This document shows positions 7,034 through 62,022 of a stretch of 64,000 bases of DNA, in pieces. The notes beneath the pieces are model-generated. The model was not told where the DNA came from. It made no database searches and was given only the letters and a program-made list of their open reading frames with translations. How positions within the stretch are numbered: position 1 is the first letter of the stretch; the number at the start of each line of letters is the position of its first letter. A program made the translations under genes and the position numbers. Source of the DNA: Antedon mediterranea (lineage: Eukaryota > Echinodermata > Crinoidea > Comatulida > Antedonidae); the NCBI RefSeq assembly GCF_964355755.1, contig NC_092672.1, positions 34,840,501-34,904,500 on the forward strand, read 5' to 3'.

Positions 7034-10000
7034 TCGGACCTAAGTCCATGTTTGCAATCAGTGGTAGTAGTGACCATCATGATACAAGTTGTGGACACCG
7101 TTGCTAATTACACATCCGGGAAAAATAACGAGAAATACATTTTTGTAAGTATACTTCTATTTCTATCATTTTGAATAATTTCATTCAGTTGGTATTTAAG
7201 TATTTGATATGGGCTTATATTTGAGAAAATTAACAGATGTAATTTATCGCTCTTTTGTACAAGGACAACATATTTTACAAGCTTTAAATTATTAATTTAA
7301 GCCTATTATTATGTCTATTGCACTCAGTTACTGGAAGATGACATCTGTTCAAATTTGATTTTGTTTTTTTACTACTGTATATCTGTGTTTTTTTATAGAT
7401 ATTTCAAAGCATTGGCAAATCATCATTTTTACTATGATTAATGAGATAACGATTATACAGCTATCAGTGTTAGCTGTTCTATTTGTTGTCGTTACACTCC
7501 TATCATTGTTAGCGTAAGTAAATTGATACATTATCATAAAAAAATTAAGTCTTATCTACACTATCAAACTTTATGTGAAAAAAAAATGAGATGTGCCTAT
7601 ATATGGACATGATGATGTCATATCACTACCATATTTTGGCATCACATATTTTTTGTCAAACTAAATTGATAGTGTAGACAGCTTTATACATAAAATACGA
7701 TAGGATGACACAATTCTGATTCATTTGTCATTAAATGCATATGTATGTATTGTATTTGATGGAATTTGAATGCAAAAATATTGAATACACTTTTTTTTTA
7801 TAAATAAAATATTCTCAAGCGCATGCTGCATGACGAATATTATGTAACACGCGAGGTAATTAATACGAGGCCTCCGAGTATCTATACCATTACATTCACA
7901 CAGCATAACACGAGTGAAATTCGAGGGTAAAATTATTTAAATACTTTTGCTCCCTATAATGGTTTCATATAAAAGCCAAAAAAAAAATGCGTGTTGCGTG
8001 CACGGACGTCGGATCACACTCGAGTCATTGCTCATGTATAAAAAGCCGCGATCGCAAAGCCTCAAATAAAACAGTAAAAACCGACAGAATTAATATTTTC
8101 ACTTGAGATGTTATTTGATATTTTAAATTTAGTACCGTAAATTGTATACAAATTATGTTTTTTTTTCAGGAGGAAGAAGCCGTCAAAGAGAAAAAGACAA
8201 ATTGCACCCAGCAACACTGTCAATGCAGTTTCTAGCAACACTGGCAATGCAGTTGTACTTGTACCAATACCAGACAGGACCTCCCCACAGGCGTTCCTAA
8301 AAGACGAGGGAACACAATATGACAAAAACATACACACAGTGGTCACAATAGAACAGGAGAATGTTGACTCTACAACGAACAAACAGGATCATGATGTTGA
8401 ATGCGGTATTGTAGCCGTCCCGTTGCCCGGAACCTTAGCCGGAGGTGTCGATGAAATAGATGGTGGTTCTAATAATGGTAACGGGAAGGAACAGCCACCT
8501 CCAAATGGTCACACGACAAACGAAGAGATAATCAAACAGTAATTTTGTTTAAATATATTTTCTTGTAGTTTCATATGTTACAGCAATTTGTAGTCAGTAT
8601 AGTTGGTTTTAACTGTGTCATACCGTAGTTGTTCCATGTAAAATCATAATTGATATTCTTAGTAGTTCATGTAATCATTATCATCATCATTGTCGTCATC
8701 ATCATCATCATCATTGCTAGCAAGCTCAACCCACCGCAAGATGAAGGCCTTTCCATCGTGCCATCTCACTTTAGATCTTTATTGGCGCCTTTGTTTCTTT
8801 CTGTTGGTACTGTAGTTCATGTATAGACCTAACATTCATTCGACCACATCTTTAGTGTTTAGAGGGAACCTGTCATATTAGTACAGTAGTAGTATCATCT
8901 GTCTATCGACCGTGTCGCTGCCGTCTTCTTCAACTCTTCGTCTTCCATTACGCTCATCGCTGTCTCCATCACGACCAACATTATCTTCAGGCTTAGACAC
9001 GAGATATTAGTCACCGCCGTTCTTGCCATCATCCTAAGTACAGTCATAATCATCATTTTAGTCTGCTCTTTATCTTCACCTATTGGCAAAACGTGTCCTA
9101 CCATACGATTTACCAGAACTATCGTGTTTTTATCAATAGAAACGATGTTCAACCTCCTCCTCCAAACGCGTACCTGGCAGCATATAACTCAATAGATTCA
9201 CAGCAGCAGACGGCCGCGGCATCTACAGCAGCAGCATCTCCCCAGGATGGAAATAATGTTGTACTTGTTGTGAACACGCGAGAGGTCCAACCAAAACCAG
9301 AGTCACCAAAAAAAGATAAGAAAGAAAAAAAGAAGAAAGAAACCAAGACAAAGAATACGAAAGATAAAAAAAACAAGAAGGAACCAACTCAAGAAAATAA
9401 ACAAATTGATAATAAAATCCATAGTGAACAATCCAATGTTAACAATCAACAAACACAACCGAGTTACGCACAACCTTTGCCACAACCTTTGCAACATATG
9501 GTTACAAACCCTCAAGAACAAACGGCAGAACGCGTTATGAATCCCGTAATTGCGTCAAACAATACGAATAAAACGCAAAGTCAAGCACAGATGGCTGTAG
9601 TAGCAGAAAGAGATACGCCACAACGGTCTAATAATCAACAAACACAACGGAGTTACGCACAGCCTTTGCCACAACCTATGGTTACAAACCCTCAAGAACA
9701 AACGGTAGAACGAGTTACGAATCCCGTAGGCCTAACTGCGTCAAACAATACGAATGAAACGCAAATCCAAAATCAAACACAGATGGCTGTAGTAGCAGAA
9801 AGAGATACGCTACAACGGTCTAACAATCAACAAACACAACCGAGTTACGCACAACCTTTGCCACAACCTATGGTTACAAACCCTGAAGAACAAACGGTAG
9901 AACGAGTTACGAATCCTGTAATTGCGTCAAACAATACGAATGAAACGCAACCACAGATAGTAGCAGAAGGAGATACACCACAACGATCTAATAATGATGC

Positions 10001-11979
10001 TGCAGGTAACTACGCTGCTTTGGTCGTTGTCACCAGTAAGGAAATGACAGAGACACCAAATGTAAATATGAATAACAACATCTGTAGATCTACTGACATA
10101 GTCACTATAGAACCGGATCATACAGTTAAATTTGGTGCCATTGGTACAACTGATCTGGTTACCAGAGAGCAGGAAAATGTAGTTCCGTTGGATACCATTG
10201 GTGGTACAACTGACGTGGTTACCAGAGAACCGGAGCATACAGTTACATCTGGTGCCATTAGTACAACTGATGCGGTGACCAGAGAACCGAAGCATGGAGT
10301 TGTACTGGATGCCATTGGTGATACAACTGACGTGGTTATCAGAGAACCGGAGCATACAGTTGCATCTGGTGACATTAGTACAACTGATGCGGTGACCAGA
10401 GAACCGAAGCATGGAGTTGTACTGGATGCCATTGGTGCTACAACTGACGTGGTTGTCAGAGAACCGGAGCATGCAGTTGCATTTGAAGACTATTCTCCAC
10501 AATCCATTGATAACACTTCCGAGATTCTGCAAGCGACTGGAAACACGACTGACGTTTCAACAAGGTAATCATTTGTGCTGTTATATTTATATACAAATTC
10601 CAGATAACTTTGAGAGACAGTTTTTTGTATAGGTCTAGTTATATATTATTTGAATTCGTTTTCTAAATACTGTATAGACATTTGTTAAAACCCCTGACAT
10701 GTACAGTCAGACTTTTTCTATAAAAAGTATTTGTTTGCGCTTAGATTGACGTGTTGAACCTAAAACAGTTGGAGTGAAATTTAATGATTAACAATTTTGT
10801 ATGAAAAAAAAAATACAAAAAGCAGTAACTTCGATGTATTATGTCAAATATAAACCGTGTCAAACACATTAATTTAGCAAACGTGATCATTATGTATATA
10901 AAATGTTGTTTTCTTCACATAGTTTTGCGCCAACCGTCACATCAGCACACGACTCAGTCTCATCAGCGTCAATCAAGGAGAAGGGAGTGACGGAAGTCGG
11001 GGATGACAACTCTCTCGGGAATGACACGCCTACGATTGCCAGCACGAATAAGGAAACACATGCCAATCATACACCGATGGAACAAGACAGTGAAGATGCT
11101 AGTAATTTAAATACACAAGAAGTTAGTTCAAGTGGTAGGCCTACTGAGGTTAACAAGACCCTAAGGACCGAGGAAACACATATTGAGGAGGAAACAAGTG
11201 ATAGTTTATGTAATGATGAACCAAGTTCAAACATGACTGTAGATAATACAGATAGTAGTGATAACTATGAAGATGACAGTAAAAACGTAATTGCTCCCGA
11301 TTCGAAAAATGAGGGACCGACAGAAAATGAACGACCGATAGAAAATAAAGGACCGACGGAAAGTGACGAGAGGATGATGATAGATAACGAAAATGAAATA
11401 TCACCAGAGGGAGAACTAAATACAATAAAAGAAAATGAACAAAATGAAAATGCATTCGAAGAAAATGACGTCAGTCAAAATATAGAACGACTTGCAGAAG
11501 AAAATGACGTCATGCAAATATCAGAGCGTCATACGGAAGAAAACGACGTCAGTCAAAATACAGAACGACTTGCTGAAGAAAATTACGTCACGCAAAATAA
11601 TGCAGAACGACTTGCTGAAGAAAATGACGTCACGCAAATATCAGAACGACTTACAGAAGAAAATGACGTCAGTCAAAATAATACAGAAGAACGACTTACA
11701 GAAGAAAATGACGTCATTCAAAATACAGAAAGACTTGTAGAAAAAAATGACGTCACGCAAATAGAGCGGCTCACAGATGAAAATGATGTGAGTCAAAACA
11801 CAGAACGACTTACAGAAGAAAATGACGTCAGGCAAGATACGGAACGAGAAGAAAATGACGTCAGTCAAGATACAGAACGACTTAGAGAAGAAAACGAGAG
11901 TGCTCCTGCGATTGCAGATCATTTTGAAACTGGAAAAGACGACCCCGACGATAGCCAGAAGATTGATATCATTATTTAA
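7034..11979 (+). CDS. Single-pass membrane protein with long repetitive tail (5' incomplete)
   Basis: Predicted exons are 7034-7144, 7410-7513, 8170-8538, 9140-10564 and 10923-11979 (stop TAA). The last four join in phase 2 throughout (GC|G, CA|A, AG|T), which supports one transcript. Exon 1 is open from its acceptor and has an extracellular-looking NYTS sequon. Exon 2 encodes one transmembrane helix (IIQLSVLAVLFVVVTLLSLL), followed by RKKPSKRKR, so the roughly 900-residue remainder should be cytoplasmic. The tail holds a Lys-rich segment, three Gln/Pro-rich repeats of about 65 residues, a block of TREPEH-type repeats and eleven ENDVxQ-type repeats. No catalytic domain is recognised. Upstream extracellular exons and the signal peptide are missing. 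The exon 2 acceptor could instead be at 7398, and exon 3 could end at an in-frame TAA at 8540-8542, giving a short-tailed form. A poly(A) signal AATAAA lies at 12513-12518. Confidence 0.6.
7547..7686. mobile_element. Foldback MITE, copy 2
   Basis: Family of 611-772, with inverted ends (TCTACACTATCAAACTTTAT and its diverged complement). It lies inside the predicted intron between exons 2 and 3 of the membrane-protein gene. The right end is shortened to GTAGACAGCT. Confidence 0.75.
8685..8714. repeat. TCA-rich microsatellite
   Basis: Imperfect (TCATCATCA)n tract interrupted by a CGTCATCAT stretch, in the predicted intron between the third and fourth exons of the membrane-protein gene. Confidence 0.7.
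9440..9992 (+). repeat. Three coding repeats of about 193 bp
   Basis: Three head-to-tail copies start at about 9440, 9633 and 9827. Each encodes NNQQTQxSYAQPLPQP, then VTNPxEQTxERV, an ASNNTNxTQ segment and VAExDTxQRS. Differences are mostly short in-frame insertions and single substitutions, which suggests recent duplication or gene conversion within the tail exon. Such arrays tend to vary in copy number between alleles. Confidence 0.85.
10142..10492 (+). repeat. Coding repeats, higher-order 117-bp unit
   Basis: Six alternating units of about 19-20 residues (TTDVVTREPEHTV and TTDAVTREPKHGV types). The last four form two nearly identical 117-bp copies at about 10259-10375 and 10376-10492. 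The reverse strand of the same array is also open, which is a by-product of the repeat and not a gene. Confidence 0.85.
11462..11900 (+). repeat. Eleven coding repeats with a TGACGTCA core
   Basis: A Glu/Asn-rich repeat of roughly 12-20 residues (E-E-N-D-V-x-Q-x-x-E-R-L) is repeated eleven times in the last exon. Eight of the eleven copies carry the exact palindrome TGACGTCA across the Asp-Val codons; the others have one or two changes. Unit length varies by whole codons, so the frame is kept. Confidence 0.85.
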
Positions 11980-39998: not shown

Positions 39999-40707
39999 AA
40001 TGTCAAAAACTCAGTTCCATTGAGACTGAAATACAATGTTTTATTTTGATTATTCAGTTTGTGCATTCCAATTAAATTTGACGTCCAAATATTTTGTTTT
40101 TGTAGCATTCTTTTTCGGAAACTGAAAACCGCCATTTATTTTCTATTTCAGTGTTTGGACTCGTCGATTATTCGCCAGGGATGTAAATCATAATTCCTAA
40201 AGTGTCATTCTGTTGGTGGCGCTAACTAACGCGCGCGTTTAAATACTGTTACACGTCGACAACTTTGTATAAATACAATGCAAAATCAGTTATAATTATT
40301 ATGTTGACTTATTGGTTTATTATAGAATGATAGAAAATTACGAAAAGAGTGTTTGAAATTAACGTTTTTGTTTTACGGGCACCGGCAAGAACAGTTGTGG
40401 ACTATCATATATACATTTTATCGCTTCTCGTCACAAATTCGAGGCTACCACACCGTACAACATATGTTATTAAATCCCTTGCATATTGCACCGGATCTGA
40501 TAGACACAATTCACCGGTAGTTCTTCTGCCGATACCGTGGTATTGATTACATTGTTATTATATAAGTTAGTCAATGTTCACACTTAAAGCAAATCAACTA
40601 TTGTTCTGTATCAACAAAGGTGGTTCAAATACAAACACGTTTGCGCTCGGCGTTCAGATTATACTGTATCATTGAGGAAAGAGGTGATCAAAATAGACCT
40701 ACTCAAA
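39999..40707. promoter_or_regulatory. Divergent intergenic spacer
   Basis: About 0.7 kb separate the start codons of the ankyrin gene (minus) and the first MAPEG-like gene (plus), so it must hold both promoters. A TATAAATA at 40268-40275 is a possible core element for the plus strand; its distance to the ATG would imply a long 5' UTR. Nothing else is assignable by eye. Confidence 0.4.
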
Positions 40708-41271
40708 ATGTCTCCTAAAAAGGACACCCAATCTGGAATAATACAAGATGGCATCATAGCACTGATTCTGTTCTCCGTCTACTCATACATCGGGTGGAAT
40801 TACCTTCCTATTGAGACTACAGGCTTGGATTCTGTATTCGATCGTCTGATATTCACCGCGCGCTGGCAAGTATTGGAGGTAGTCCTTCTGTTTACGATGA
40901 TCATGGTAGTAGCCAACACCCGGTTTAGGAGTGTGGACAAAATTGGAGATCCGACTAAACCAATGCCACCATCCCATATCATTACCGTGCATATTCGAGT
41001 TCTCCAGAATACTGTGGAGCAGTTGGCTCTGAGAGCACCGTTTGAACTCATTCTCTCTACATATCTCGAGCAGACGTCAATGAAACTGATTCCGTTGTTG
41101 GTCACGTTTTTTGTGGTAGCAAGGATCATTTTCTGGGTTGGATACACCCGTGGTCCATTTCAAAGAGCTCTTGGATTTTCAATGACATTTATGCCGACGA
41201 TGTTGATGATGTTTTTCAATCTGTATTGCTTCTTCACCAAAGGAGCAACGTTCGGATTGTCTTCTGCTTAG
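40708..41271 (+). CDS. MAPEG/TMEM79-like four-helix membrane protein, copy 1
   Basis: An intronless frame of 187 residues from ATG 40708 (MSPKKDTQSG). An upstream in-frame TTG is not used. Four hydrophobic segments are seen: about residues 14-33, 52-72, 130-150 and 158-177. Between the second and third lies GDPTKPMPPSH, then RVLQNTVEQL, the N-T-x-E-Q signature of the MAPEG fold (the membrane family that includes glutathione-using enzymes and TMEM79/mattrin). The TMEM79-type order (an EQL motif, a loop LSTYLE, then LIPLL and WVGY) is kept. Enzymatic activity cannot be inferred. A tandem relative lies 1.15 kb downstream. The poly(A) signal AATAAA is at about 41598. Confidence 0.75.
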   Translation: MSPKKDTQSGIIQDGIIALILFSVYSYIGWNYLPIETTGLDSVFDRLIFTARWQVLEVVLLFTMIMVVANTRFRSVDKIGDPTKPMPPSHIITVHIRVLQNTVEQLALRAPFELILSTYLEQTSMKLIPLLVTFFVVARIIFWVGYTRGPFQRALGFSMTFMPTMLMMFFNLYCFFTKGATFGLSSA

Positions 41272-42420
41272 ATTAGACGTCGAGCACCATTTGACATGTC
41301 TAAGAAGACATGACGTCAACTTCTGTTCTGGTTATCGTTGTATTAGTATAGAAGAGACTCTAGGAACTCGCCATTAGAAACGATACCGTACGTCACTGAC
41401 TATAACTGTACTCTTTCTCTCTGTATGTTCTGGACAGCAAGCTCTTTTGCTTCTTTCGTCAAACTAGCTGTCGATTACAACTTTCAAAACATTTCTTAGA
41501 ATGCTTGAATATTATTTTTAAAGCAACATCGTCTCCTTTTATTACTTAAACGTCATTGGTAGCTGAATAATTATGAATATCACAGTAGTAAATCGAAAAT
41601 AAAAAACAATTTTGTCATTCATTTTTTAATAGAGTTGAATAAAAAAAACCAAGCGCAATTGATTTTACTTATTAGTAGGACCACAAAGGAGCGATACATG
41701 GCCGGAAGGGGATTACGATAGATGATATTGGCACAAACAGCGGATAAAGTACCCAGTGATAGGAAATAATGGAAGAGTATAATCTTTACTTTATTTCATT
41801 ATCCCATGGATGTATAGCCTTTGAATTTGTTTGATCTTGAACAGCTGCTTGAAAGAATCATTACCGTATTAAGAAAAATGCATTGAATTGCATGAAAATA
41901 ACTATATTGCATCGGCCTAATCGTTAATTTTGCAGCATAGCCGCCATACAACGGGTAATTTCAATGTATTGGTTAAACCATGGAGATCTTGATTAAATAT
42001 ATGCTGCCTCTTCGATAGTCCAAAAAAGATCTATTGATTCACGATCATACTCGACGATTTTAATCAATTGACGGAACGTGTATTGATTTATTCCAGGACC
42101 CTAATATCAGATTACACCATTGTGCTATTGTATGTTCAAATAGAGCAAAGAAAACAGTTCTTTGGTTCAACGGACTATTAAAGCAAAGAAAGGAACGAAA
42201 GCGGTTCGGAGTTCGAACATATTTGCAGCCAATTAAATCTGACCTTTTCCGTTGTATACCCGGTACAATTGTGTTGTTTTTTAAAGGCGTTGTCGTCTTG
42301 CAAAGACTAGTGTAACGGTTGTGCCAACTGTCTAAGCCTTCTCTTTGACGTGACACAGGACTTCATCGTGAATTCAACAGTACTATAAGGTGAATTACTC
42401 AATTACCAACTGACCTCAAA
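41272..42420. other. Spacer between the two MAPEG-like genes
   Basis: Holds the 3' UTR of copy 1 (AATAAA near 41598) and the promoter/5' UTR of copy 2. No further exon or recognisable element is seen. The minus-strand ORF at 42060-42356 has no support. Confidence 0.5.
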
Positions 42421-42957
42421 ATGACACTTAAATCTGAAATCGAATCCAGAATCAAGAGAGACAATGCAATTGGATTTCTCCTTCTGGCTGCATATTTTTA
42501 CGTCGGATGGAACTATATCAATTTCCAGACTTCTAATCTGAATGCTGTCCTGGATCGTCTGGTGTACACCGCTCAATGGCAGATACTGGATGTTGGCCTT
42601 TTGATTGTCATGATTTTGACGGTTGGTATGACTCGTGGAAGTGACCTTACAAAAGTTGGAGATCCCACTAAGCCTATGCCAGCATCACACGTCATCAACG
42701 TTCATTGCCGAGTTCTCCAGAATACTGTGGAGCAGTTTGTTATCAGAGCTCCTTCGGAACTCATTCTCTCCACATACTTGGACGCAGGTTGTATGAAGAT
42801 TATACCATTGCTGGTGATATTGTTTGTGGTTGGAAGGGTTGTTTATTGGATTGGATACGTCAAAGATCCTTTTAAGAGAGTTTTGGGATTTACATTGACA
42901 CAGATGCCAACCATCTTCATCGTGTTTTATTGTGTGTATTCTTTGATAGCAATGTGA
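42421..42957 (+). CDS. MAPEG/TMEM79-like four-helix membrane protein, copy 2
   Basis: An intronless frame of 178 residues from ATG 42421 (MTLKSEIESR) to TGA. It aligns end to end with copy 1, sharing GWNYxxFxT, VGDPTKPMPxSH, VLQNTVEQ, RAPxELILSTYL and IPLLV. Four membrane segments lie at corresponding positions. It differs mainly at the N-terminus and in having a shorter C-terminus ending in VYSLIAM. The same CTCAAA precedes both ATGs, so the duplication reached into the 5' UTR. A poly(A) signal lies at about 43119-43124. Role unknown; probably a lipid-environment membrane protein like TMEM79. Confidence 0.75.
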   Translation: MTLKSEIESRIKRDNAIGFLLLAAYFYVGWNYINFQTSNLNAVLDRLVYTAQWQILDVGLLIVMILTVGMTRGSDLTKVGDPTKPMPASHVINVHCRVLQNTVEQFVIRAPSELILSTYLDAGCMKIIPLLVILFVVGRVVYWIGYVKDPFKRVLGFTLTQMPTIFIVFYCVYSLIAM

Positions 42958-43598: not shown

Positions 43599-46500
43599 TC
43601 ATAAATTCGTAAGCGCTTCTTCTTCGTTTGTATGAAGAGCTGAAAGAATAAGTGACAAAGTTTAATACTATTTGTTTTATTACGTAGGTCTAAAATTACT
43701 GCGCATGCCCTTGATGATGTCATTACCTACCTGTGTTTGCATAGGCTTGTCCCATCTTTGAATTCCTAACTGGTCTTTCATTTTTTGCTGAATACACGTT
43801 ACAAAGAACATTTACTTTTGGTACAAAAATGGCGATAAAAATAAGAGTTGAATTTAAAGTTAATCCGACACAAACACTTGCTACCTCATAATCCGTATCG
43901 TCTGATAAAACATAGACGCACGTCCACGCGATGACGCAACATATAGTTGAGACGCACGCAAGAAAAATGAATCTCGCCTCGCTATTTACACTTGATGAAC
44001 TTAAAGCTCCAAAAGATGATATTAATGAAAATAATACTAGAAAGCAAGCGTACGATAAAGATATAACTAAATCCAGTTTTTCGAAGGAGCACAGTGTCTC
44101 GTTATTTGAATTTAAAACAGTTGATGGATGTTCAAGAATCAGCCATTCGACAACCAACACAATTTCCGCCATTAAAAATACAAAGAAAAATAGAGTTTGT
44201 GATGAAGCACCAATAAATCCGATTGGTTCTTCCGGAACCAAACGACGACGTAGTCTATTAATCCGGATGATTTTAACTGATAGTGCAGAGAAGACGATGG
44301 CATACACAAAACTGACACCAACTCGTCTTATACCGCAAACGATTACTGTAGGTTTGACCATAAATGGTAAATTCATTACATACATCAATATCAATCCAAT
44401 AATTAGCCAGATACTCAGGTTAAGAGATGCTTCAATGACAACAGTGTGACGTCTGTAGTAAAATAAGTAACCAGCAACTAACAAAATCAATGCAGCAAAT
44501 GTTGCAGAAGCCGCCAAAACGATGGTTACCCAGTAGCCTTCAACATTCCAGACGATACTTTCACTGTCATCAGGTTCATTAGTTTCGCCGGTTGTTTCTG
44601 GTGATGACGTCTTGCAATTGCAGAGCGTACCAACAGGACATGTCGACGTTCTTACACCCTCTTGGAGATTGCCATTGATGTCGTACGACTTGATCTTGGT
44701 AACATCAATTAGTAGCGTTCCAGACAGTATACTTCCAACCTTAAAATGAAATGTCATTTGGTACGGTAATTAAACATACACAAAGGACGACAGTCATGAC
44801 CTTTGTTTCAGGGTAAGCTAGGCCTATATGGACTAATACTTGTTGATGCTATAATACTGTACCTGTATTTCTTTGGCATTCTGATCACCTATCTGATTAA
44901 AAATAACAATCTCGTCTTCAATCTCTCCCTCATTAAACTTGATAGATTCTTCGCTGATTGGTGGATGAATTTCAACATTTGCTAATGTATTGTATATACC
45001 CTTTGAATCAGGTTCCAAAAATTCCCTGCATATCGACATTGCATTCTCTTTACAAAGAGTAGAAAGTCTGTTGTGAGCTGCTTGCGCAATCATATATACA
45101 GATTTAATCGTTTCAGCAACCAGATCTGATATACGAAGAAGAGATTCATCAACGCTTGTTAAGGTCAAGCCTTTTTCACATATTGGGACGGGAGACGTAA
45201 ATTCATCTTCAAGTCTACAATTAGCTAGTATTTCAAAATACTCTCTAAACCAAGGATTTCCATGATCGTCAAGTGGATTGATGTTTTTCAGATACGTCTC
45301 AAATTCAGTAAGATCATACTTGTATTGTCTTCTTGTGGATAATGTTGCTATTGGTGAGTTCTTAAAAGCTGTGACGTCATGGATGCTTGGAAATGATCCT
45401 ACCCACATTACATTGGCTTCATTTGTTCCAAAGGTAGCTCTGCTTTCGAGCAGCATAGAAAAATGGCCGTCAGACAAGAACGCAACTGCCACGCCTACTT
45501 CTGATGTTGATATTTCTGAAATGATTCCATCAAACTGCAAACGACTTCCATCTTCTGGTATTCCCTTATTCACGGCTATACAAACACCAAGATATTCTAT
45601 TTCTTTTGTAAATTGCTCAGCTTGAAATCGTTCATAATCTGCGTCTGTGTATACAATTGCTATGTATGTCCAATTGAAGTAAATCACTAGCTCCTTTAGA
45701 GTAGAGAAAGTTGGTAGTTGGCTTTGTTTGGTAAAGATATGATACGGCGCTGATGATGTTGATGCACTTTCGTTATCAAACACAGACGGACTGATCTAAA
45801 ATGATAATATTTCGACGATAATCTATGTACAAACTATAACATTGGTTAAAATGTATGACCAATTACATATTTTATTTTGATACAACAGATATGAAATTTA
45901 AACGTTTTTAATTTTAGATCCTGATTAGTTCAGAACATAAGACATGAATTATAGGCATAAGAACGGAAATAATCAATTCTGTAGTAGGCCTAATGATTTT
46001 GTTAGTCTTTTTTTTAATAATATTTTACTCACGGCGGTAAAGCCCAGTATGTTTACAGCATTCGGAACTATAGCAGAAGCCACCACTGAATCAACAGGTC
46101 CAATGACAGCAAAGTCATGGCCGTACCGACTAGAATTACCAACAATATTCACGAACTGATCATACGCCATCAATGTGCTCCCGCAGTAATCAGCAACGGC
46201 TGCCCCAAGATTCAGCCCAGGCAATATGTTATTGTCTCCATTGATTTTATCCATTGCGTAAATCAAAGCCTGCACTGCTACAACTTCCTCTAGGTTCAAG
46301 CTGCCACACCTCAAAGCTGAGGAACCAGCAGTGTGTGTTGAAAATAAAGCGGGAATAACGATGTCTCCATCAATTATCGACAGCTTAGGGTTTTCGTTAG
46401 AGCATGGAAGAGTTTTGTAAGGACATTCTGATGCTACATTTTCAAACTCGGCAACGTTTAATCCTTCTAACCCGACACCATCTTTCCAGGATCCGATCTA

Positions 46501-49500
46501 AAAAGCAACATATGACAAAAGTTACACATTGGAACGAAATGAAGAGGAAAACTCTATGAGTTATTTTGAATTTCCGCTGACATCGAGTGTATTTAGTTTA
46601 ATAGTAAATAGCTTACAGTCTGGTAGCCGAATTCCGAATTAAGTTCCTCAAATTTGTTGACGTCATACACAGCCGAATTTACTTGTCCATTTTCATCAAA
46701 TGCGACATCTGACCCACTCAAACTTTCAACCATCGTTTCATTGATATGAGAGAGCCACTCATCCATTGATACCGATTGTAAATCTTTACAGATAGTACCC
46801 ACTTCAGGACACTTGTCGCGTATCAACATATCTAACGCTGTAGAAAGAACGTACACAGCATCTATAACACTGGAAATAGTGCGACTTTGGGCATCCGTTG
46901 CGCTTAAGACATCTGAATCTATGGAAAGTAGTAAAAGTATACATACATTATACGGCAACATATCATATATTGTTCTAAAATACAACTTACTACTACTGCC
47001 GGTATACTTCTTCTCTTAAAATGTACAGTTTAGAACGAAGTAAATACACCTTAAAATGTAAAACTGTAAATCACTTTTATAATTAGAATGTCATATTAAT
47101 TAATCTTATACCATACTTTACAATATTTTTATATTTACGCGGCTACTCAACATCTAATCCATGTAATAAATAAATCATTCGATTTGAGTGTATGAGTCAC
47201 AGAATGCGTCAAAATGTATGGAAGGCCAAACCTGTGCATAATTCGTCATAGAGGATTGGTTGACCCGGTAATTGGCAGTTGTAGCGTCCCATCCAGAATT
47301 CTGCGAACCACGGATCAGCAGAATTGTTTGGTTGTAATCCGGTAAAATAAGATTCAAATTCTGAATTGACCAGAGATTTTGGAGAGATGGTTATTGAATC
47401 TGAAAGTGACGAAAAACCAAAGATAAAATTGTATTTATGAAGTATGACTCATTGGAAAATCAAATCATAGTAAAAAATATATTTTCAGTTTCCATTTTAA
47501 ATCGGCGAATAATTATTTCTGTTTTAAATTAATATATTGTATTTACTCTTGGCGACTGATTTAACACCAACTACAGCTGATGAGTCTAAACCCCATTTGT
47601 CTGAAGCCAAAATCTGAAATGTCTGCTCTAGTCCGGCACGATCAATGGCTCTAAGGAACTGGTTTACTTCTTGAAACTCCAAAAAGACAACAATGACGTC
47701 GGATGTTGGATACGCCAGTAATTTGTATATTACGTCATCATCGAAAGAGGCGTCTTCGTCTACAACAATTGAGTTTGCAACAAAGATATCGGCCTGTTTG
47801 GAAAAAAATATTACTGAATTAATACTTCTTCAACTTCTTCGAACTTGGTGAAAGAGATCATAAATGGTGCTACGAAAATTTTACAATTTGATATGTTTAC
47901 TGTTTATTTAAGACTTATTTTACCTTAGCGGCAAGATCTTTCAAAGTTTTCACGGCTTCATTTGCATATTGACCTTCTAGAATTTGAATATATTTATATT
48001 CAGCTTGTAAAAGAACATCAACCAAAACTCTTGCTTGTTTTTGGTCAGTGCCAACAACATGATAGAAGTTAACAAGGTCAGCAGTAGATGCAGTTGAAAG
48101 TTGTCCAATCTGGACCATGTCAACTGCAGCTAGTTGCTGGTTGACCGATCTAGTGAGGTCATTCCTATCTGCGCCAATAGCCCCGATTGCATACTGTTGA
48201 TTTCCGCTTTGTTCTCTATTCATAAAAAGTTCTTCTGTTTGTTGGAACCCGGATGTGAACTGATACGTTTGAGAACCTGCTATTCTGCTATCGGAGCACG
48301 TGTCATACGCTTCCATACCAATTGTCACATTTGGAAGAATGTTCTCATTGTTATTTATCGTCTGGATAGCATACAACATCGCCTGCATTCGAACGTACCC
48401 GGATGTCTTGAAAACACTACAATTGACGTCATGAATGGAAAACATCCCTGCGAAAATGACATCACCATATATAATAAATGATTTAGCTGAGCTCGAAAGA
48501 CATATTGTGCAAGAGTCTGGACAAGTTGAAATTGAAATGTCTTCAAGCTGCGTGGATGAATTCCATAACTGTAGGTTATTGATATCAAGTGTTATTCCTG
48601 TATCTGTGTTCCATTCACCAACCTACAATATAACAAAATATATAACAATAGATATTAAAAGGACACCTTCTGGACCAACGTCTTAATAGGGGTAACTACT
48701 GAATAAAAAAGTTGGCTGTAGTACATGTACGTTACAACATCATATTGACATTCGTTCATTTTACGGGAAAGTATCCCCTGAATAGGAGTACCAAAAGAAG
48801 AGTAATCGAAGTACAGTAGTTCTGTACAGATCTTTATTAATAACAGTATTTCATTCATTTTCTTTATTTCGAATAGTACATCCGTATACAAATCATACAA
48901 AAGAACAAAAAGAGAAACAATTTCACCAGGAAATTGACAATATAAGCAACTTCCACAAAACCAACCAACAATAACCTAAAATACTAATTTGCACCAACGC
49001 TGATGTAGGTTGGATTGTGGAAGTACGTTAACTATGGTTTGAATTAGATAAAAACATAAATAGGTTAGGATACATAGGATATTTACTTTTATAAATCTAG
49101 ATTTTAATCAACCAACCTTAACTAAGGTACTATTTCCATTATTATCCAATTGTACATTGTGAATATCAAACTCGACATGCTTCGGTTCTCCATTATCTTT
49201 AAACACAATCGTCTGATTCAAGGCACCTGTAAAATCATCTGTCAAAAGTGTACTCAACAAACTTTGGCCAGCCGCTGAACCAAATCGTTCACATATTCCC
49301 ACGGTTTCGCCACACAATTCCTGGTGAAGTTTTGCTAACGCTTCAGCATATATAAACACAGCATCGATTATATTTGAAACGATGACGTCAACATTGTTAA
49401 ACGTCTCTGATGTAAACTCCGTTGATTTGTTACATGGTACACCATAGTCGCCATCTTGTGATAAATCACATTCATTCATATTTTCCCAAGCTCGCGCGAA

Positions 49501-51791
49501 CCAAGGGTTCTCCTCTTTCGACACCAAACTTGGGTTAAGTGAGCTTAAATATGTTTTGAAGTTTTCGTGAATCTGTCTGGTATATTTCATTGATACGAGT
49601 CCACGGATGACGTATTTATGAGTGGTTTGAAGTTGTAGTGTTGGTTCCACGTTAGATACCCACTGGAGGTAGGACGCAGAATCTCCGACACTTGAAATGG
49701 CTTCCATTGCACACGACAAGATGGACGTGTCTTCTAAAAGAAGAACCACCACTAAAACAAACCAAAAATAATCACATAATAATGGAATAAGGATCAGAAA
49801 ATTACTTTTGTGTCGATATTTTAATATAACCGTACTTGCCTTTAATATCAGAGTTTCTTAATATCTTCATAATTCCGTTTTCAAATGTGTCCTGGATCTG
49901 AGAAGTAACTCGCACTCTTTCAGCCAGGCATATTCCAGCGTCATTGGCGTTCGTCAGAAGTTTGTCAAATGTTGTCTCCATAGTTTCTGAATACATGACA
50001 GCAACATAGTTCCAATTCATGTTCCAAAGCAGATCGACTATAACCTGCAAAAGAAACTCAGCATATTCAATAGAAACATAGAAAAATAACTTCACTTTGT
50101 CTACACTATCAAGCTGGTGATGTGCTCAAATATGGTACTGATATGCCCAAATAGTGTAGTGATATGATATCATCATGTCCATAGGCACATTTTTTATCAC
50201 ATAACGTTTGATAGTGTAGAAACATAGCATTTTTAATAGAACTGAAGCTCCCTAAGGTGGTGCAGTATTATGAGTTTAAACTTTAACCTGTGTACTCTTC
50301 ATACCTGAACTTGTATCTTCTCTGATGGAGCAAGACTGAAGAACGAACTGTGAATATCTCTATTTTCCGTGAATTCAGATGACGTAGCTTCTCCATAGAC
50401 GATTAAAGGAATATTTTGATATGATAAGAGAGGAGATACATATTGAGTTACCTCATCAATCATGGGACCAATTATTCCTGAAATAAACATAATGATTGAA
50501 AAAGAACAAGCACGTTTGACATTTTAAATTACCTTTAAGGCTCTGTCTACACTATCAAACTTTATGTGACAACAAAATGTGATGTGCCCATATGTCATCA
50601 CTACCATATTTGGGCATATCACCAACACATTTGGACACATCACACTTTTTGGAAAACTAGTTTGATAGTGTAGACAGAGCTTTAGTTAGAGCGACATGCG
50701 GTAGGCTCGCACATAATTTGCCAGTAATAGTGGTTTAAAACGTGAATAATGTATTGTTAATATGTATACTTTTTAATTAAATTATAAGATTATTTTCTTT
50801 TTTTCTTTGTTCTATATATTTTGTATTACGATAGAAAACAAATGCTTCAAAATAAATAGCTGGATAACATGTTCTAATTTATATAACATAATGCGATTTA
50901 TTTTATAATCGCTTACCTGGTCGTAGTATTACGTCACTACATAATGACCCATTTATATTGTATAATTGATTATCGATGTAATTAAGGACATGTTGACCTC
51001 CTACTTTATGCGATGAGCAGGAATCAAACGCTTCCAAACCTGACAAAACAAAGAAAAATCCACTTTAAGAAACCATTATAACAATTATATAAGTACGACA
51101 TATGACAATCAATCAGTACTTTTGTTGAAGATCTTTCGACAACATATTGGACTGAATAGGCCTTAATGGAATACTGTATTGCATAATCAAATTCAGCAGA
51201 AGGCTTACCATTTTACAATATCTATAACTCATTTATTTTCAGTATTTGTTCGACAAAAACGTAGGTCTACTAAAGAGTAAATGAAGCTTATGACTCACAG
51301 CCAGAAGTATGGCTACAGACGTTGCAAAATAACCTTTGAACAACAAACAATAACATTCTCCAAACATTACTGTAGGCCTATTTTTGATGCGCTATTTCCT
51401 TATTTGATTCTAAAATGGGCCATTGATTTTGAAAATATATTGTTATCGTATCAATCAATATCAACCAATCCCTGAAATCACATACCCATCAACACATTAA
51501 ATGCATTTTATGCCCATTACATTGACACTTACCTATGCTAACTCCTGGGATTTTGGAGGCATCAGGTATATTCTTTACAGCGTAAATGGCAGCCTCCACA
51601 AGAGCGATGTTCTCCGCTATTGGTTCGCTGGAGCAGAAGTCACCATCTTTACCGAAAAATGGAAAGAGAAATCCTAGACGAACGTTACCATCTACAACAC
51701 CGACCAAAGGAGATGAACACGTCTGAGACGATGTAGAAGATGACACTAAAACGCTCGCAAACAGGCTTAGTATTAGTAAAACGATTTCCAT
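43599..51791 (-). CDS. Class C GPCR with three tandem ligand-binding domains, 1752 residues
   Basis: Thirteen exons on the minus strand: 51533-51791, 50917-51039, 50305-50477, 49840-50044, 49117-49751, 47924-48622, 47547-47793, 47232-47399, 46617-46918, 46033-46497, 44863-45795, 43731-44739, 43599-43639. All phases close, giving 1753 codons with the stop. The protein starts with a signal peptide (MEIVLLILSLFASV). Three consecutive receptor-family ligand-binding (periplasmic-binding-protein type) modules follow at about residues 20-465, 466-937 and 938-1403. Each ends before a VG/IG-(E/S)-W-like linker with a small Cys cluster. One seven-helix domain (residues about 1450-1700) has the class C marks EARFIFL before helix 6 and FVPK at the end of helix 7. 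The tail is short. No nine-Cys domain is seen. It most resembles metabotropic glutamate receptors. The ligand is unknown. Intron 4 uses a GC donor. Confidence 0.85.
43731..44739 (-). other. Seven-helix exon of the class C receptor
   Basis: Residues 1404 to about 1739. After a short linker with CPVGTLCNC, seven hydrophobic helices follow, starting WVTIVLAASATFAALILLV. Helix 3 begins CGIRRVGVSF, consistent with the conserved class C disulphide cysteine. ASSQ precedes helix 4. The third intracellular loop is short and Ser-rich (SSSSVNSEARF). The last helix ends IFVPKVNVL, matching the F-x-P-K motif. The whole heptahelical domain sits in one exon. Confidence 0.85.
44863..46497 (-). other. Ligand-binding module 3 of the class C receptor
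   Basis: Encoded by only two exons (10-11), residues 938-1403. It has the IGSWKDG linker, CPYKTLPC, IVIPALFSTHT, ALIYAMDKINGDNNILPG, DYCGSTLMAY, AVIGPVDS, LVIYFNWTYIAIVYTDADYE, and a late NPWFREYFE shared with module 1 (NPWFARAWE) and module 2 (DPWFAEFWM). It leads through VGSI directly to the membrane exon. Confidence 0.8.
46617..48622 (-). other. Ligand-binding module 2 of the class C receptor
   Basis: Encoded by exons 6-9, residues 466-937. It begins with the linker VGEWNTDTG and CPDSCTIC, then GDVIFAGMFSIHD, MLYAIQTINNNENILPN, GMEAYDTCSD and GAIGADRND. Its W-x-Y-V-type motif is replaced by EYKYIQILEG. The ATSS-type contact stretch reads QLSTASTADL. It ends GYQT before IGSW. Confidence 0.8.
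48655..49110. other. Intron between modules 1 and 2 with retroelement-like tail
   Basis: The 494-bp intron (48623-49116) contains a stretch (about 48810-49025) resembling a reversed retroelement 3' end. No exon is found, and the module 1 and module 2 exons join in phase 0 across it. Confidence 0.45.
50094..50226. mobile_element. Foldback MITE, copy 7
   Basis: Family of 611-772, about 133 bp, in the intron between receptor exons 3 and 4. The ends are worn (CTTTGTCTACACTATCAAGC and GTTTGATAGTGTAGA). Confidence 0.75.
50535..50684. mobile_element. Foldback MITE, copy 8
   Basis: Family of 611-772, about 150 bp, flanked by TTTAAG and CTTTAG. It lies in the intron between receptor exons 2 and 3, about 400 bp from copy 7. 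Confidence 0.8.
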
Positions 51792-58300: not shown

Positions 58301-61300
58301 GTGTAGACAGAACTTAACACTCAATGGGATCGAAGAGGGTTGAGAGAGTAAAGTGATAAGTGTATGTGTACCATCAAACTTTATGAATAACCTCTTTATT
58401 ACTTTACAAGCTTACTTACTATCATATAACGGATTCTTCTTTGTGACCAGCTTCGGCCTACTGTTTGCCATCATGATGTTGCTAGGGTCAAGAGGGTGGT
58501 TGTTGTGTTCGGACGGTAACGGTGTTGTTGTCCTGTTCTTGTCACACGTAGGCTGGGGAAATATTATAACATTTAGTTTTAATGAATGTAACAAAAAACT
58601 ATTAGTTTAAAATGATGTTTTTTATGGTTTACAGTAAATACTTACCTGATGGAATGCTATACTATCAGCTGGTAACAATACATTACAAAATTCACAAGGT
58701 AACATTGCCACTTCTTCGTCGGCAAATCTAAATATAATACCAAATAGAGATTGGTGAACTTAAACATACTTAACAGGATTGACTTTAAGCTCTGTCTACA
58801 CTATCAAACTCTATGTGACCAAACATGTGATGTGCCCATATATGGACATGATGATGTCATATCACTACCATATTTTGGCATATCACTACCATATTTGAGT
58901 TCACCACACTTTTTGTAAAACTAGTTTGATAGTGTAGACAGAGCTTTAGAGAGAGATGGAATTGAATTCACACAAGCAGCTAGTTTCATTAGAGTAAACT
59001 CACCTATCAGGTTCAAAACTAACAGACGGTGGAGGGGATGGAATTCGTAAAGGAGGAGGCCCTCTACTGATCAATCTATCGCGACTCTGTCTTGACTCTC
59101 TTGGACGCTGGTCAAACTGACAACCAGACTGAAAGGAAGAAAATAGTGGTACATACAATTAATATTTGATGCATACATTTTTGTAAGTTAACAAGGTATA
59201 CTTTTTTTTTCATTTTATGTGTTTTAATTATTATTATTTGCACTTATTTATATGGTATATATTCACTTACTTGGTGTAATATTAGGTCTTGGGCTGGAAC
59301 TGGTTTACCACAAAACTCACATGGTAGCTTTGTACCATCATCCTGCTCTGAAATCGGAGTAAAATGTATTTTGATTGATTTGACTTTAATTTATTTGGAA
59401 ACTTATTATAAAAATGACATACAAAGTGAAAATACTGACATTACTAATAACTGCATTGATAAAAGATTTTCCAGAAAAAAAGCTTATTAGCTTATGTCCG
59501 TTGGGAAATGAACTTTTCAGAGTATAATGCATACCATTGGATAAATGACTCAATTAGATGGTTAGATCTAGAAGGTACTATGTATCATTAGTATGAAAGC
59601 CAAGAGATGCCACCATGATTGTGGCATGATAAAGTATAAAAGCTATGAGGTGCCACCATGATTGTGGCATGATAAAGTATAAAAGCTATGAGGTGCCACC
59701 ATGATTGTGGCATGATAAAGTATAAAAGCTATGAGGTGCCACCATGATTGTGGCATGATAAAGTATAAAAGCTATGAGGTGCAACTAACGTACCTGCTGA
59801 ATCATGTACATCTAAATATCTGGCTGCCGCAACAGGAGGGTCTGGAATGGTATAAGCTTCTTTTAACATAGTATCGATATCACTTTCAAATACTGCCGCT
59901 CCTCGGACATCCCTCTCTTTTGAAAGGTCCTGAGCAAGGTGTCTTGTTAAGAAATCCATCTCACTTGGGTTGGACAGTCTGTTCTGTGACCTATGACCTG
60001 CAACAAAATTGATTCATTAAGGAATGCACAAGGTGTAGAAAAAGATATAAGCTTGGTTTCCGCTAGGACACAACGCAAAGGCTTAAGAGCAACGGAAGTA
60101 ATTTTATTTAAACTATTGCGTGTCATTGGTCAATTTACTTGTGTTGTGCATACGTCCTTGCGTTGCATTCTAGTGGAAAGCAATCTTTAACTGGTAATGT
60201 TTGTGTATAATTAAAATTATAATTTATTCAACTTATAATTATCTATCAATGTTTTGATTTTTTTTTAAATATAAAATGCTTAGAATAACAATTTTAAAAA
60301 CCTTTTCTGTTGTCTGGCTTGCTTTTTTCTCCTAAAAGATTTTGCACACGTGACTTATTCTTTCCATGTTTCCGTTCATCAGTATTACGTGGAACATAAA
60401 CCGGAGGGGATACTGTTCGACTATCAAACATACCAAAGTTTTCGGTAATGTTAAACCCACTATCGAAATGCTGCGGTGCTCCAAATCGTCCATCTGCCTG
60501 GTAACCCAACAAGAACGCCTGATTGTCATGAAGTTTATTGTGCGTTGTTGACACTGGGGGCGCTTGCTCCGGAAGAGAACAAGCTGAGTTCTCATGAATC
60601 TCTCTGTCTTTAATGCAGATGTAGCGGCTGCATATTGGACATGGTTCCGTTCTGCTTCCACAGAAGTCTTCATGAGAGAATAAGTCTTTGACTGCCATGT
60701 CCATCTCACAGAATTTACACATTTTCATGCGTAGATTGCATTCATCTTTCTATTAAGAAAAAATAATGTAATTAAAACATGTAATAATTATTCTATACAC
60801 ATTTAATTCATATCTTAATAATGTTAATAATAATTATTTAAATATAATATATTTAGTTATGGCCAATTATATATTTTAAAATTGTGCATACCTTGTGGTC
60901 TTCTAGATTTTGTTTTTCAACTTTTTCGCCACACTCACAATTCACCTGAAAATATTCAACAAGATTATAGTCACAGTTGGGTTGTATGCGAAATAAAATA
61001 TTTCCCGAAACCAGAATAGCAGCTATAAGCAGGCCCGTATCCAGGGGGGGGGGGGTGCGTTGGGTGCAGACGCACCCCCCCCCCCAAGTCCCAAAAGGTC
61101 CACTATTTCCTCGATTGGTATTTTTTTTTGTCTTGTTTAACTAAAGACAATATCATTATATATATACAAAATTTACATTATCAATGGTATACAAACAAAA
61201 ATATGCTAATATAAAATGAAAAAATACCGGTAATTAAATTACGGAATCTGAACTGACTACAAACTCGATGTAAAACATGCGCAGTCGATCATGTGACGAC

Positions 61301-62022
61301 AAGCAATAGCTTAGCGCATCATGTACGCGGTACGCGGTAAAGTGTTTGCTGGAAATACAGACAACTTAACCGGCGGTAAAGACGTGTCTGGAAATACAGA
61401 CACTATCGACGCTGTCTGAGTTGGCCTCATCATGAAAGCGTTAAGTTTTGGTGTCCATCGTTCAACTAGCCCAAGCCACAACAGAGAGTCTTAAATCAGT
61501 CTTTAGAACGTCAAATAACGCAAATTTTGCCAGGGCCTTCGTCCCCTAGACCCTGACCGGGGGCCCTTGGCGGCCCCCTGGCCCCCAGCCATTGTTGCTC
61601 GCTTCGCTCGCACCCCCCCATTATAAATGCTGCATACGGGCCTGTATAAGATATACATATACATTACCTTGGCGTGAACCTCTTCAAAATGTTGTTCCAT
61701 TTGCCTGTGAGGTACAGTTTCACCGCAGTGTTTACAGAGCGAAATATTTCTGGAGCAGTGAGATTGGTGCATGATGAAATTTTTGGCTGGAATATCCCGC
61801 TTGCTGAAAAAAATACAGATTAGTAAATTGTTTAATGAAAATATGAGAAGATTGTTAACATTTTAATAATTCTACTGCATGATTGGATCTGGAAGATTTC
61901 AAAATATATAAAATCTTCATTCATTGAGTCAACTGCTACTGTTGAAATCCAATTTTACTACAAAATAATTGAACAAAAATACTATACCAGTTGCTGCAGT
62001 GTTTTGTTTCTTCTTCAGCCAT
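55342..62022 (-). CDS. TRAFD1: TRAFD1 (FLN29)-like TRAF-type zinc-finger protein, 15 exons
   Basis: Exons on the minus strand: 61988-62022, 61668-61803, 60892-60945, 60302-60749, 59794-59997, 59271-59347, 59004-59128, 58646-58727, 58420-58552, 57926-58102, 57471-57626, 56339-56599, 55939-56161, 55638-55743 and, tentatively, 55342-55365. All join in frame, giving 746 residues. Residues 1-130 carry a chain of Cys/His fingers (HCSNCKRDIPAKNF, LCKHCGETVPHRQMEQHFEE, CECGEKVEKQNLEDHK, MCKFCEMDMAVKDLFSHEDF, PCPICSRYICIKDREIHEN). Two later LPCEFC fingers each sit over an exon break (residues about 300-340 and 375-400). This order matches vertebrate TRAFD1, a cytoplasmic negative regulator of Toll-like-receptor and RIG-I-like signalling. 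The linker and C-terminus are Ser/Asn/basic-rich and longer than in the human protein. The exon 4 donor is weak (AAAG|GTTTTT) but phase-consistent. Confidence 0.85.
55463..55615. repeat. Internal fragment of the pogo-like element
   Basis: Matches the 14655-14775 part of the element at 14620-15131 (CTCCCAATACCAGAC, TTTTTAATGGTAAAA) and then its partial complement. It lies in the predicted last intron of the TRAFD1-like gene. Confidence 0.5.
57239..57390. mobile_element. Foldback MITE, copy 9
   Basis: Family of 611-772, about 152 bp, flanked by TAA and TTA. It lies in the intron between TRAFD1-like exons 11 and 12. Confidence 0.8.
58141..58317. mobile_element. Foldback MITE, copy 10 (rearranged)
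   Basis: Two right halves of the family of 611-772 lie in series: GATAGTGTAGATAGAGCTTT at about 58219-58238 and GATAGTGTAGACAGAACTTA at about 58297-58316. There is no intact left end, which suggests nested insertion or internal duplication. It lies in the intron between exons 9 and 10 of the TRAFD1-like gene. Confidence 0.65.
58785..58948. mobile_element. Foldback MITE, copy 11
   Basis: Family of 611-772, about 164 bp, with both ends intact (TTTAAGCTCTGTC and GACAGAGCTTTA). It lies in the intron between exons 7 and 8 of the TRAFD1-like gene. Confidence 0.8.
59606..59780. repeat. 43-bp minisatellite next to a splice donor
   Basis: Four near-identical copies of a 43-bp unit start at 59606, 59649, 59692 and 59735. 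Each contains the hairpin TGCCACCATGATTGTGGCA. The last partial copy runs to within about ten bases of the exon 5 donor of the TRAFD1-like gene (GTACGT at 59793-59788). Confidence 0.9.
61030..61644. mobile_element. 615-bp inverted-terminal-repeat element (hAT-like?)
   Basis: Ends CAGGCCCGTATCCAGG on the left and TGCATACGGGCCTG on the right form imperfect inverted repeats, flanked by the direct repeat TATAAG (61024-61029 and 61645-61650). The interior is G/C-rich at both ends with long G and C runs, and no transposase is seen. CAG...CTG ends would fit hAT, although the duplication is six rather than eight bases, so the superfamily is tentative. It lies in TRAFD1-like intron 2, starting 17 bases after the exon 2 donor. 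Confidence 0.7.

Follow-up and report, generated by a model that had tools for sequence, protein, structure and literature searches.

Three serial Venus flytraps predicted on one seven-helix core in a class C receptor gene of Antedon mediterranea

Related receptors and their architectures

Metabotropic glutamate receptors (mGluRs; mGlu1-8) and GABA-B receptors are class C G protein-coupled receptors (GPCRs) that carry one Venus flytrap per chain, and in every class C mechanism solved to date, to our knowledge, each chain links a single flytrap to one seven-transmembrane (7TM) domain. The present analysis concerns a gene in a 64,000-nt stretch of the crinoid Antedon mediterranea (assembly GCF_964355755.1, NC_092672.1, positions 34,840,501 to 34,904,500; hereafter the window, whose own numbering is used for coordinates), which is predicted to place three flytraps in series before a single 7TM domain. 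A 2025 survey in eLife describes the metazoan glutamate-family architectures as flytrap plus cysteine-rich domain, flytrap alone, and Cache plus EGF, and calls them constrained (PMC12716839).

The mGluRs, with mGlu7/5, mGlu4/7 and mGlu3/2 for the flytrap modules and mGlu2/3 for the 7TM, provide the best sequence relatives of the window receptor among solved structures, and they share with it the intra-module disulphides, the VGxW motif at the flytrap end and the cysteines of transmembrane helix 3 (TM3) and extracellular loop 2. Beyond the number of flytraps, they differ from the window receptor in three respects: it lacks the NCD3G cysteine-rich domain (no Pfam match) and has short cysteine-bearing stubs instead, its glutamate pockets are incomplete or lost, and the NFNEAKFI motif before TM6 is missing. 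GABA-B receptors resemble it as class C GPCRs without a cysteine-rich domain, but differ in their one flytrap per chain; none occurs among the 45 solved-structure chains matched by the 7TM or among the module matches listed. Venus kinase receptors, which are invertebrate receptors, resemble the window receptor in that their flytrap is class C-like (PMC3703292). Their flytrap is borne by a single-transmembrane receptor tyrosine kinase, whereas the window receptor has a 7TM and no kinase match.

A literature search, with most subscription journals and animal protein databases outside its coverage, returned no account of a class C 7TM that bears flytraps in series. Automated domain databases may contain predicted proteins with repeated ANF_receptor domains. 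The serial-flytrap class C design is apparently undescribed, and apparently represents a real, intact and old architectural variant. The existence in nature of receptors that have three or four serial flytraps but lack a cysteine-rich domain would mean that the class C architectural constraint can be broken. Such receptors would also provide a natural setting in which to test how closure on a ligand is conveyed to the membrane domain and whether a flytrap can be a passive relay.

A three-flytrap receptor gene in the window

The gene model, rebuilt by script from the sequence, comprises 13 exons on the minus strand (51791-43599; Table 1) that join in phase into 5259 nt encoding 1752 amino acids and a stop, with no internal stop codon. 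Eleven introns are GT-AG and one, between exons 4 and 5, is GC-AG with an otherwise good donor (AAAG/GCAAGT, the slash marking the exon boundary). A Pfam search of the joined protein finds ANF_receptor in three stretches (E 1.1e-94) and 7tm_3 once, at residues 1470-1711 (E 3.4e-31), while NCD3G and kinase domains give no match. Within the window, all ANF_receptor matches lie in 45043-50062, and the sole 7tm_3 match is the last exon block. Introns after residues 465, 937 and 1403 fit the module lengths of 465, 472 and 466 residues. Each module is matched over nearly its full length by an mGluR flytrap of solved structure: mGlu4/7 for module 1 (1.6e-37), mGlu7 for module 2 (7.7e-52) and mGlu3 for module 3 (7e-37). 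The 7TM is closest to mGlu2/3 (1e-20), and all 45 of the chains it matches are mGlu receptors.

By its 7tm_3 domain and extracellular Venus flytrap domain, the window gene is a bona fide class C (glutamate-family) GPCR, and it is highly likely that three serial flytraps and one seven-helix core occupy a single chain. The original prediction, made from the letters of the window, had described the same 13 exons with closed phases and coding length, modules of about the same three lengths, a single signal peptide and a membrane domain after the last module only. The rebuilt exons, the domain search and the one hydrophobic N-terminus and one 7TM bundle of the protein bear this out. The W-G/E linker that it had noted at each border returns in the form [VI]G-x-W at the first two (VGEW, IGSW), but only weakly at the third (VGSI).

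An alternative explanation would see in the joined modules three adjacent genes, or an artefact of assembly or annotation; their joining is here predicted from genome sequence. Directly upstream of exons 6 and 10, the reading frame runs into a stop at the acceptor site. In-frame ATGs first appear at codon 60 in exon 6 and at codon 82 in exon 10, each of them within the flytrap, and the window sequence holds no start codon or signal peptide belonging to modules 2 or 3. The border introns measure 494 nt and 119 nt, too short for the roughly 750 nt that a 7TM needs, and a genome-wide search finds no additional 7tm_3 match in the region of the gene, modules 1 and 2 included. Because modules 2 and 3 lack starts of their own and the border introns cannot hold a 7TM, separate genes or an artefact become very unlikely, almost negligibly so. 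The window modules are furthermore 19-22% identical, which excludes a repeated assembly segment, and the same plan recurs at a second locus on another contig. The earlier argument against separate genes was checked at genome level: no additional 7tm_3 exon appears at modules 1 or 2, and no start or signal peptide at modules 2 or 3.

A four-flytrap paralogue

The genome searched (354 Mb in 18 contigs, including the window) contains, on contig C6, seven ANF_receptor matches within 8.5 kb followed by one 7tm_3. The corresponding gene model (C6:28338331-28350186) has 17 exons with GT-AG introns throughout and encodes 2252 amino acids, with one N-terminal signal peptide, four ANF_receptor flytraps (A, B, C and D) and one 7tm_3. 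One exon missed by the gene finder was placed by hand at a phase-0 junction (donor GTAAGA, reading ...DAYNM/IGSW...). The paralogue resembles the window gene in its A-B-D module order, intron positions, truncated linkers, single signal peptide and single 7TM, but differs in having an extra module, C, between B and D, and the corresponding parts of the two genes are only about 19-28% identical. The three-flytrap arrangement originally proposed from the window is therefore supported by its own gene model and, independently, by a very divergent gene with the same plan, module order and intron positions.

Only these two multi-flytrap class C genes were detected in the genome, although more divergent ones could escape profile matches. 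A cluster of ANF_receptor matches at C7:23353230-23357191 was considered as a third tandem gene and rejected, as it consists of a single flytrap, a cysteine-rich region and a 7TM. ANF_receptor exons at C3:32333748-32334622 and C3:33180976-33181610 have no 7tm_3 match nearby and possibly belong to flytrap receptors of another type. An intron inside module B of the paralogue (28342194-28342609) contains a short tandem repeat with repeated CSNMVVK in one frame.

Origin of the modules

The seven modules (W1-W3 in the window gene, C6A-C6D in the paralogue) share 19-27% pairwise identity, which indicates that the module duplications are old. A maximum-likelihood tree of the flytraps joins W1 with C6A (93/95) and leaves W2, W3 and C6B-D unresolved on long branches, and a tree of the 7TMs joins those of the two genes (89/90); both joins unite long branches, and neither is starred. 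Since the flytrap tree leaves most modules unresolved, their pairing rests mainly on introns, whose positions were projected onto an alignment built without knowledge of them. W1 and C6A have introns in common at columns 104 (phase 1), 154 (phase 1), 213 (phase 0) and the border at 530 (phase 0); W2 and C6B at columns 255 (phase 0), 348 (phase 1) and 417 (phase 1); and W3 and C6D at column 180 (phase 0) and the 530 border. C6C has a pattern of its own.

The matching columns and phases indicate that both genes descend from a multi-flytrap ancestor with at least A-B-D and a 7TM, and module C would be a gain in one of them or a loss from the other. The pair is predicted, from its gene structures, to be an ancient two-gene family of tandem-flytrap receptors. 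The module borders are phase-0 introns located just before [VI]G-x-W, an arrangement that makes each module a symmetric, duplicable cassette. In the single-flytrap receptors inspected in the same genome, VGxW is read through within one exon, so that the border intron is, among the genes inspected, peculiar to the tandem genes. Recombination between the phase-0 introns that precede the VGxW end of each module is the probable route by which the modules multiplied.

Linkers, ligand pockets and a possible working scheme

The linkers comprise 40-66 residues. They open with VGxW, or with a variant of this motif, and contain a short cysteine cluster that corresponds to the first part of the mGluR cysteine-rich domain, its very beginning; the remainder of the domain is missing. 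The linker before the window 7TM has 66 residues and three cysteines. In mGluRs (mGlu2/3), a cysteine of lobe 2 pins the cysteine-rich domain. It is present in six of the seven modules, where the following stubs have odd cysteine counts (3, 3, 3, 3, 3 and 1), and absent from W2, whose stub has two. This parity, holding in seven of seven cases and noticed post hoc, is no more than suggestive that each stub is tied to its own flytrap. All three window modules retain the three disulphide pairs that mGluRs form within the module, and a cysteine in the variable loop, at the site of the mGluR inter-subunit disulphide, occurs only in W1 and C6A among the seven.

The pockets were compared at seven mGlu1 sites (R78, S165, T188, D208, Y236, D318 and K409). 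In module 2 these sites read R, N, T, D, Y, D and E, so that five of seven are kept; module 3 keeps two, the equivalents of S165 and Y236; module 1 keeps none; and the C6C residues are H, S, T, D, Y, E and A. This distribution weakens the earlier suggestion that several ligand molecules could be bound by the chain, as most of the amino-acid-binding signature is kept in module 2 only. It is unlikely, on our assessment, that all three modules bind ligands, possibly different ones, which the chain then sums. Three complete flytraps with conserved disulphides, kept intact over the very long time that 19-27% identity implies, together with the two residues retained in module 3, speak for such summation, and the loss of alpha-amino-acid contacts leaves other ligands possible; most of these contacts are nevertheless missing from modules 1 and 3, the signature being largely confined to module 2 and paralogue module C.

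The retention of most pocket residues in module 2 and in paralogue module C leads instead to a proposal, tentative but nearly evenly balanced, of one sensor module combined with structural or relay modules. The principal sensor would be module 2, which would respond to an amino-acid-like ligand. A covalent dimer is probably held together by module 1, where the loop cysteine of the mGluR dimer cross-link is kept, and module 3, with its decayed pocket, probably passes the closing motion through its own stub to the 7TM and the G protein. There would be one sensor per chain, module 2 in the window gene and C in the paralogue, penultimate in both, with the D-type membrane-proximal module acting as relay. 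The gene model, the order of domains, the shared intron map and the residue losses are shown by the sequence, and from there we infer dimerisation, ligand class, relay and G-protein coupling. The first lobes of the modules might alternatively pair within one chain, giving a built-in oligomer that works without a partner: class C flytraps pair through lobe 1, and several modules per chain could do so internally. This seems quite unlikely, given that the module number is odd, that the linkers, 40-66 residues long and with cysteine stubs, point to stacking more than to side-by-side pairing, and that the loop cysteine of W1 and C6A would favour cross-linking between chains.

Several observations weigh against a tandem receptor with one sensor and a relay. 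The splicing of the 13 exons into one transcript is predicted from the genome; some donors of the window gene are weak by consensus (that at 47547 scores -1.5), and an unaided dynamic-programming gene finder omitted exons 7 and 9 and shifted the start of exon 8, its model being set aside for the hand model because the latter restores a complete module 2 flytrap. Single-sequence AlphaFold of the 7TM exon alone gives seven long helices at low confidence, insufficient for a fold search (mean predicted local distance difference test score, pLDDT, 46.5). W3 and C6D are only 19% identical and are paired on one internal intron, the proposed dimer cysteine sits in a poorly alignable loop, and S165, a key alpha-amino-acid contact, is replaced in module 2, which makes the ligand class unsure. 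The symmetric phase-0 borders would equally allow module-skipping alternative splicing. The locus might accordingly yield several products, including transcripts that skip modules or stop short after module 1 or 2 and yield secreted flytraps, with the full-length chain a minor one; read-through of intron 5 does meet a stop directly after VKVG. Module order, the single 7TM and the single signal peptide are, however, all retained in the paralogue, from which the full-length chain is argued to be the selected product, and the several-product explanation is given a small probability.

The best overall explanation, regarded as probable, is a tandem-flytrap class C GPCR chain of an old two-gene family with a sensor and relay scheme. 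A wider proposal is made with more reserve: the two genes may represent an undescribed ancient class C subfamily in which three to four serial flytraps replace the cysteine-rich domain as the signal path, and one liganded sensor acts on the 7TM through a ligand-free relay flytrap.

Exon coordinates and other features

Table 1. Exons of the predicted three-flytrap receptor gene (window positions; a slash marks an exon boundary)
Feature	Position	Strand	Content
Exon 1	51533..51791	-	Start codon, signal peptide MEIVLLILSLFASVLVSSSTSS, beginning of flytrap module 1
Exon 2	50917..51039	-	Module 1
Exon 3	50305..50477	-	Module 1
Exon 4	49840..50044	-	Module 1; followed by the sole GC-AG intron
Exon 5	49117..49751	-	End of module 1, up to LVK/VGEW border
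Exon 6	47924..48622	-	Linker stub VGEW...STCPDSCTIC and start of module 2; in-frame stop immediately upstream of acceptor
Exon 7	47547..47793	-	Module 2
Exon 8	47232..47399	-	Module 2
Exon 9	46617..46918	-	End of module 2, YQT/IGSW border
Exon 10	46033..46497	-	Linker stub IGSW...SECPYKTLPC and start of module 3; preceded by 119-nt intron
Exon 11	44863..45795	-	Remainder of module 3, EIQ/VGSI border
Exon 12	43731..44739	-	Linker stub with STCPVGTLCNC and seven-helix domain (7tm_3)
Exon 13	43599..43639	-	Short cytoplasmic tail, stop

Introns 2 and 3 of the receptor gene contain two related short elements (50539-50680 and 50095-50224) with inverted ends, TCTACACTATCAAAC ... TTGATAGTGTAGAC, that have the look of a transposon of the miniature inverted-repeat transposable element type. 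Elsewhere in the window, two adjacent and similar membrane-protein frames lie on the plus strand (40588-41271 and 42394-42957), the first of which matches MAPEG (E 2.2e-13). A TRAFD1/XAF1-type zinc-finger exon is located at 60294-60749 on the minus strand (E 2.7e-10), and the frame at 61503-61862 appears to belong to that gene as well. Two long low-complexity frames on the plus strand (8997-11979) contain repeated acidic and Gln/Asn-rich sequence, in the form of EENDVSQNTERL repeats.

In the wider genome, a Hox cluster at C2:7.83-8.21 Mb contains twelve homeoboxes, including three posterior ones of Hox11/13 type and one Hox9/10-like gene, a content that fits an ambulacrarian (echinoderm or hemichordate). 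A COX1 search, aimed at the mitochondrial code, has no match in this genome. One posterior Hox gene of the cluster (C2:7848416-7848592, minus strand) lies in the opposite orientation to the eleven others.

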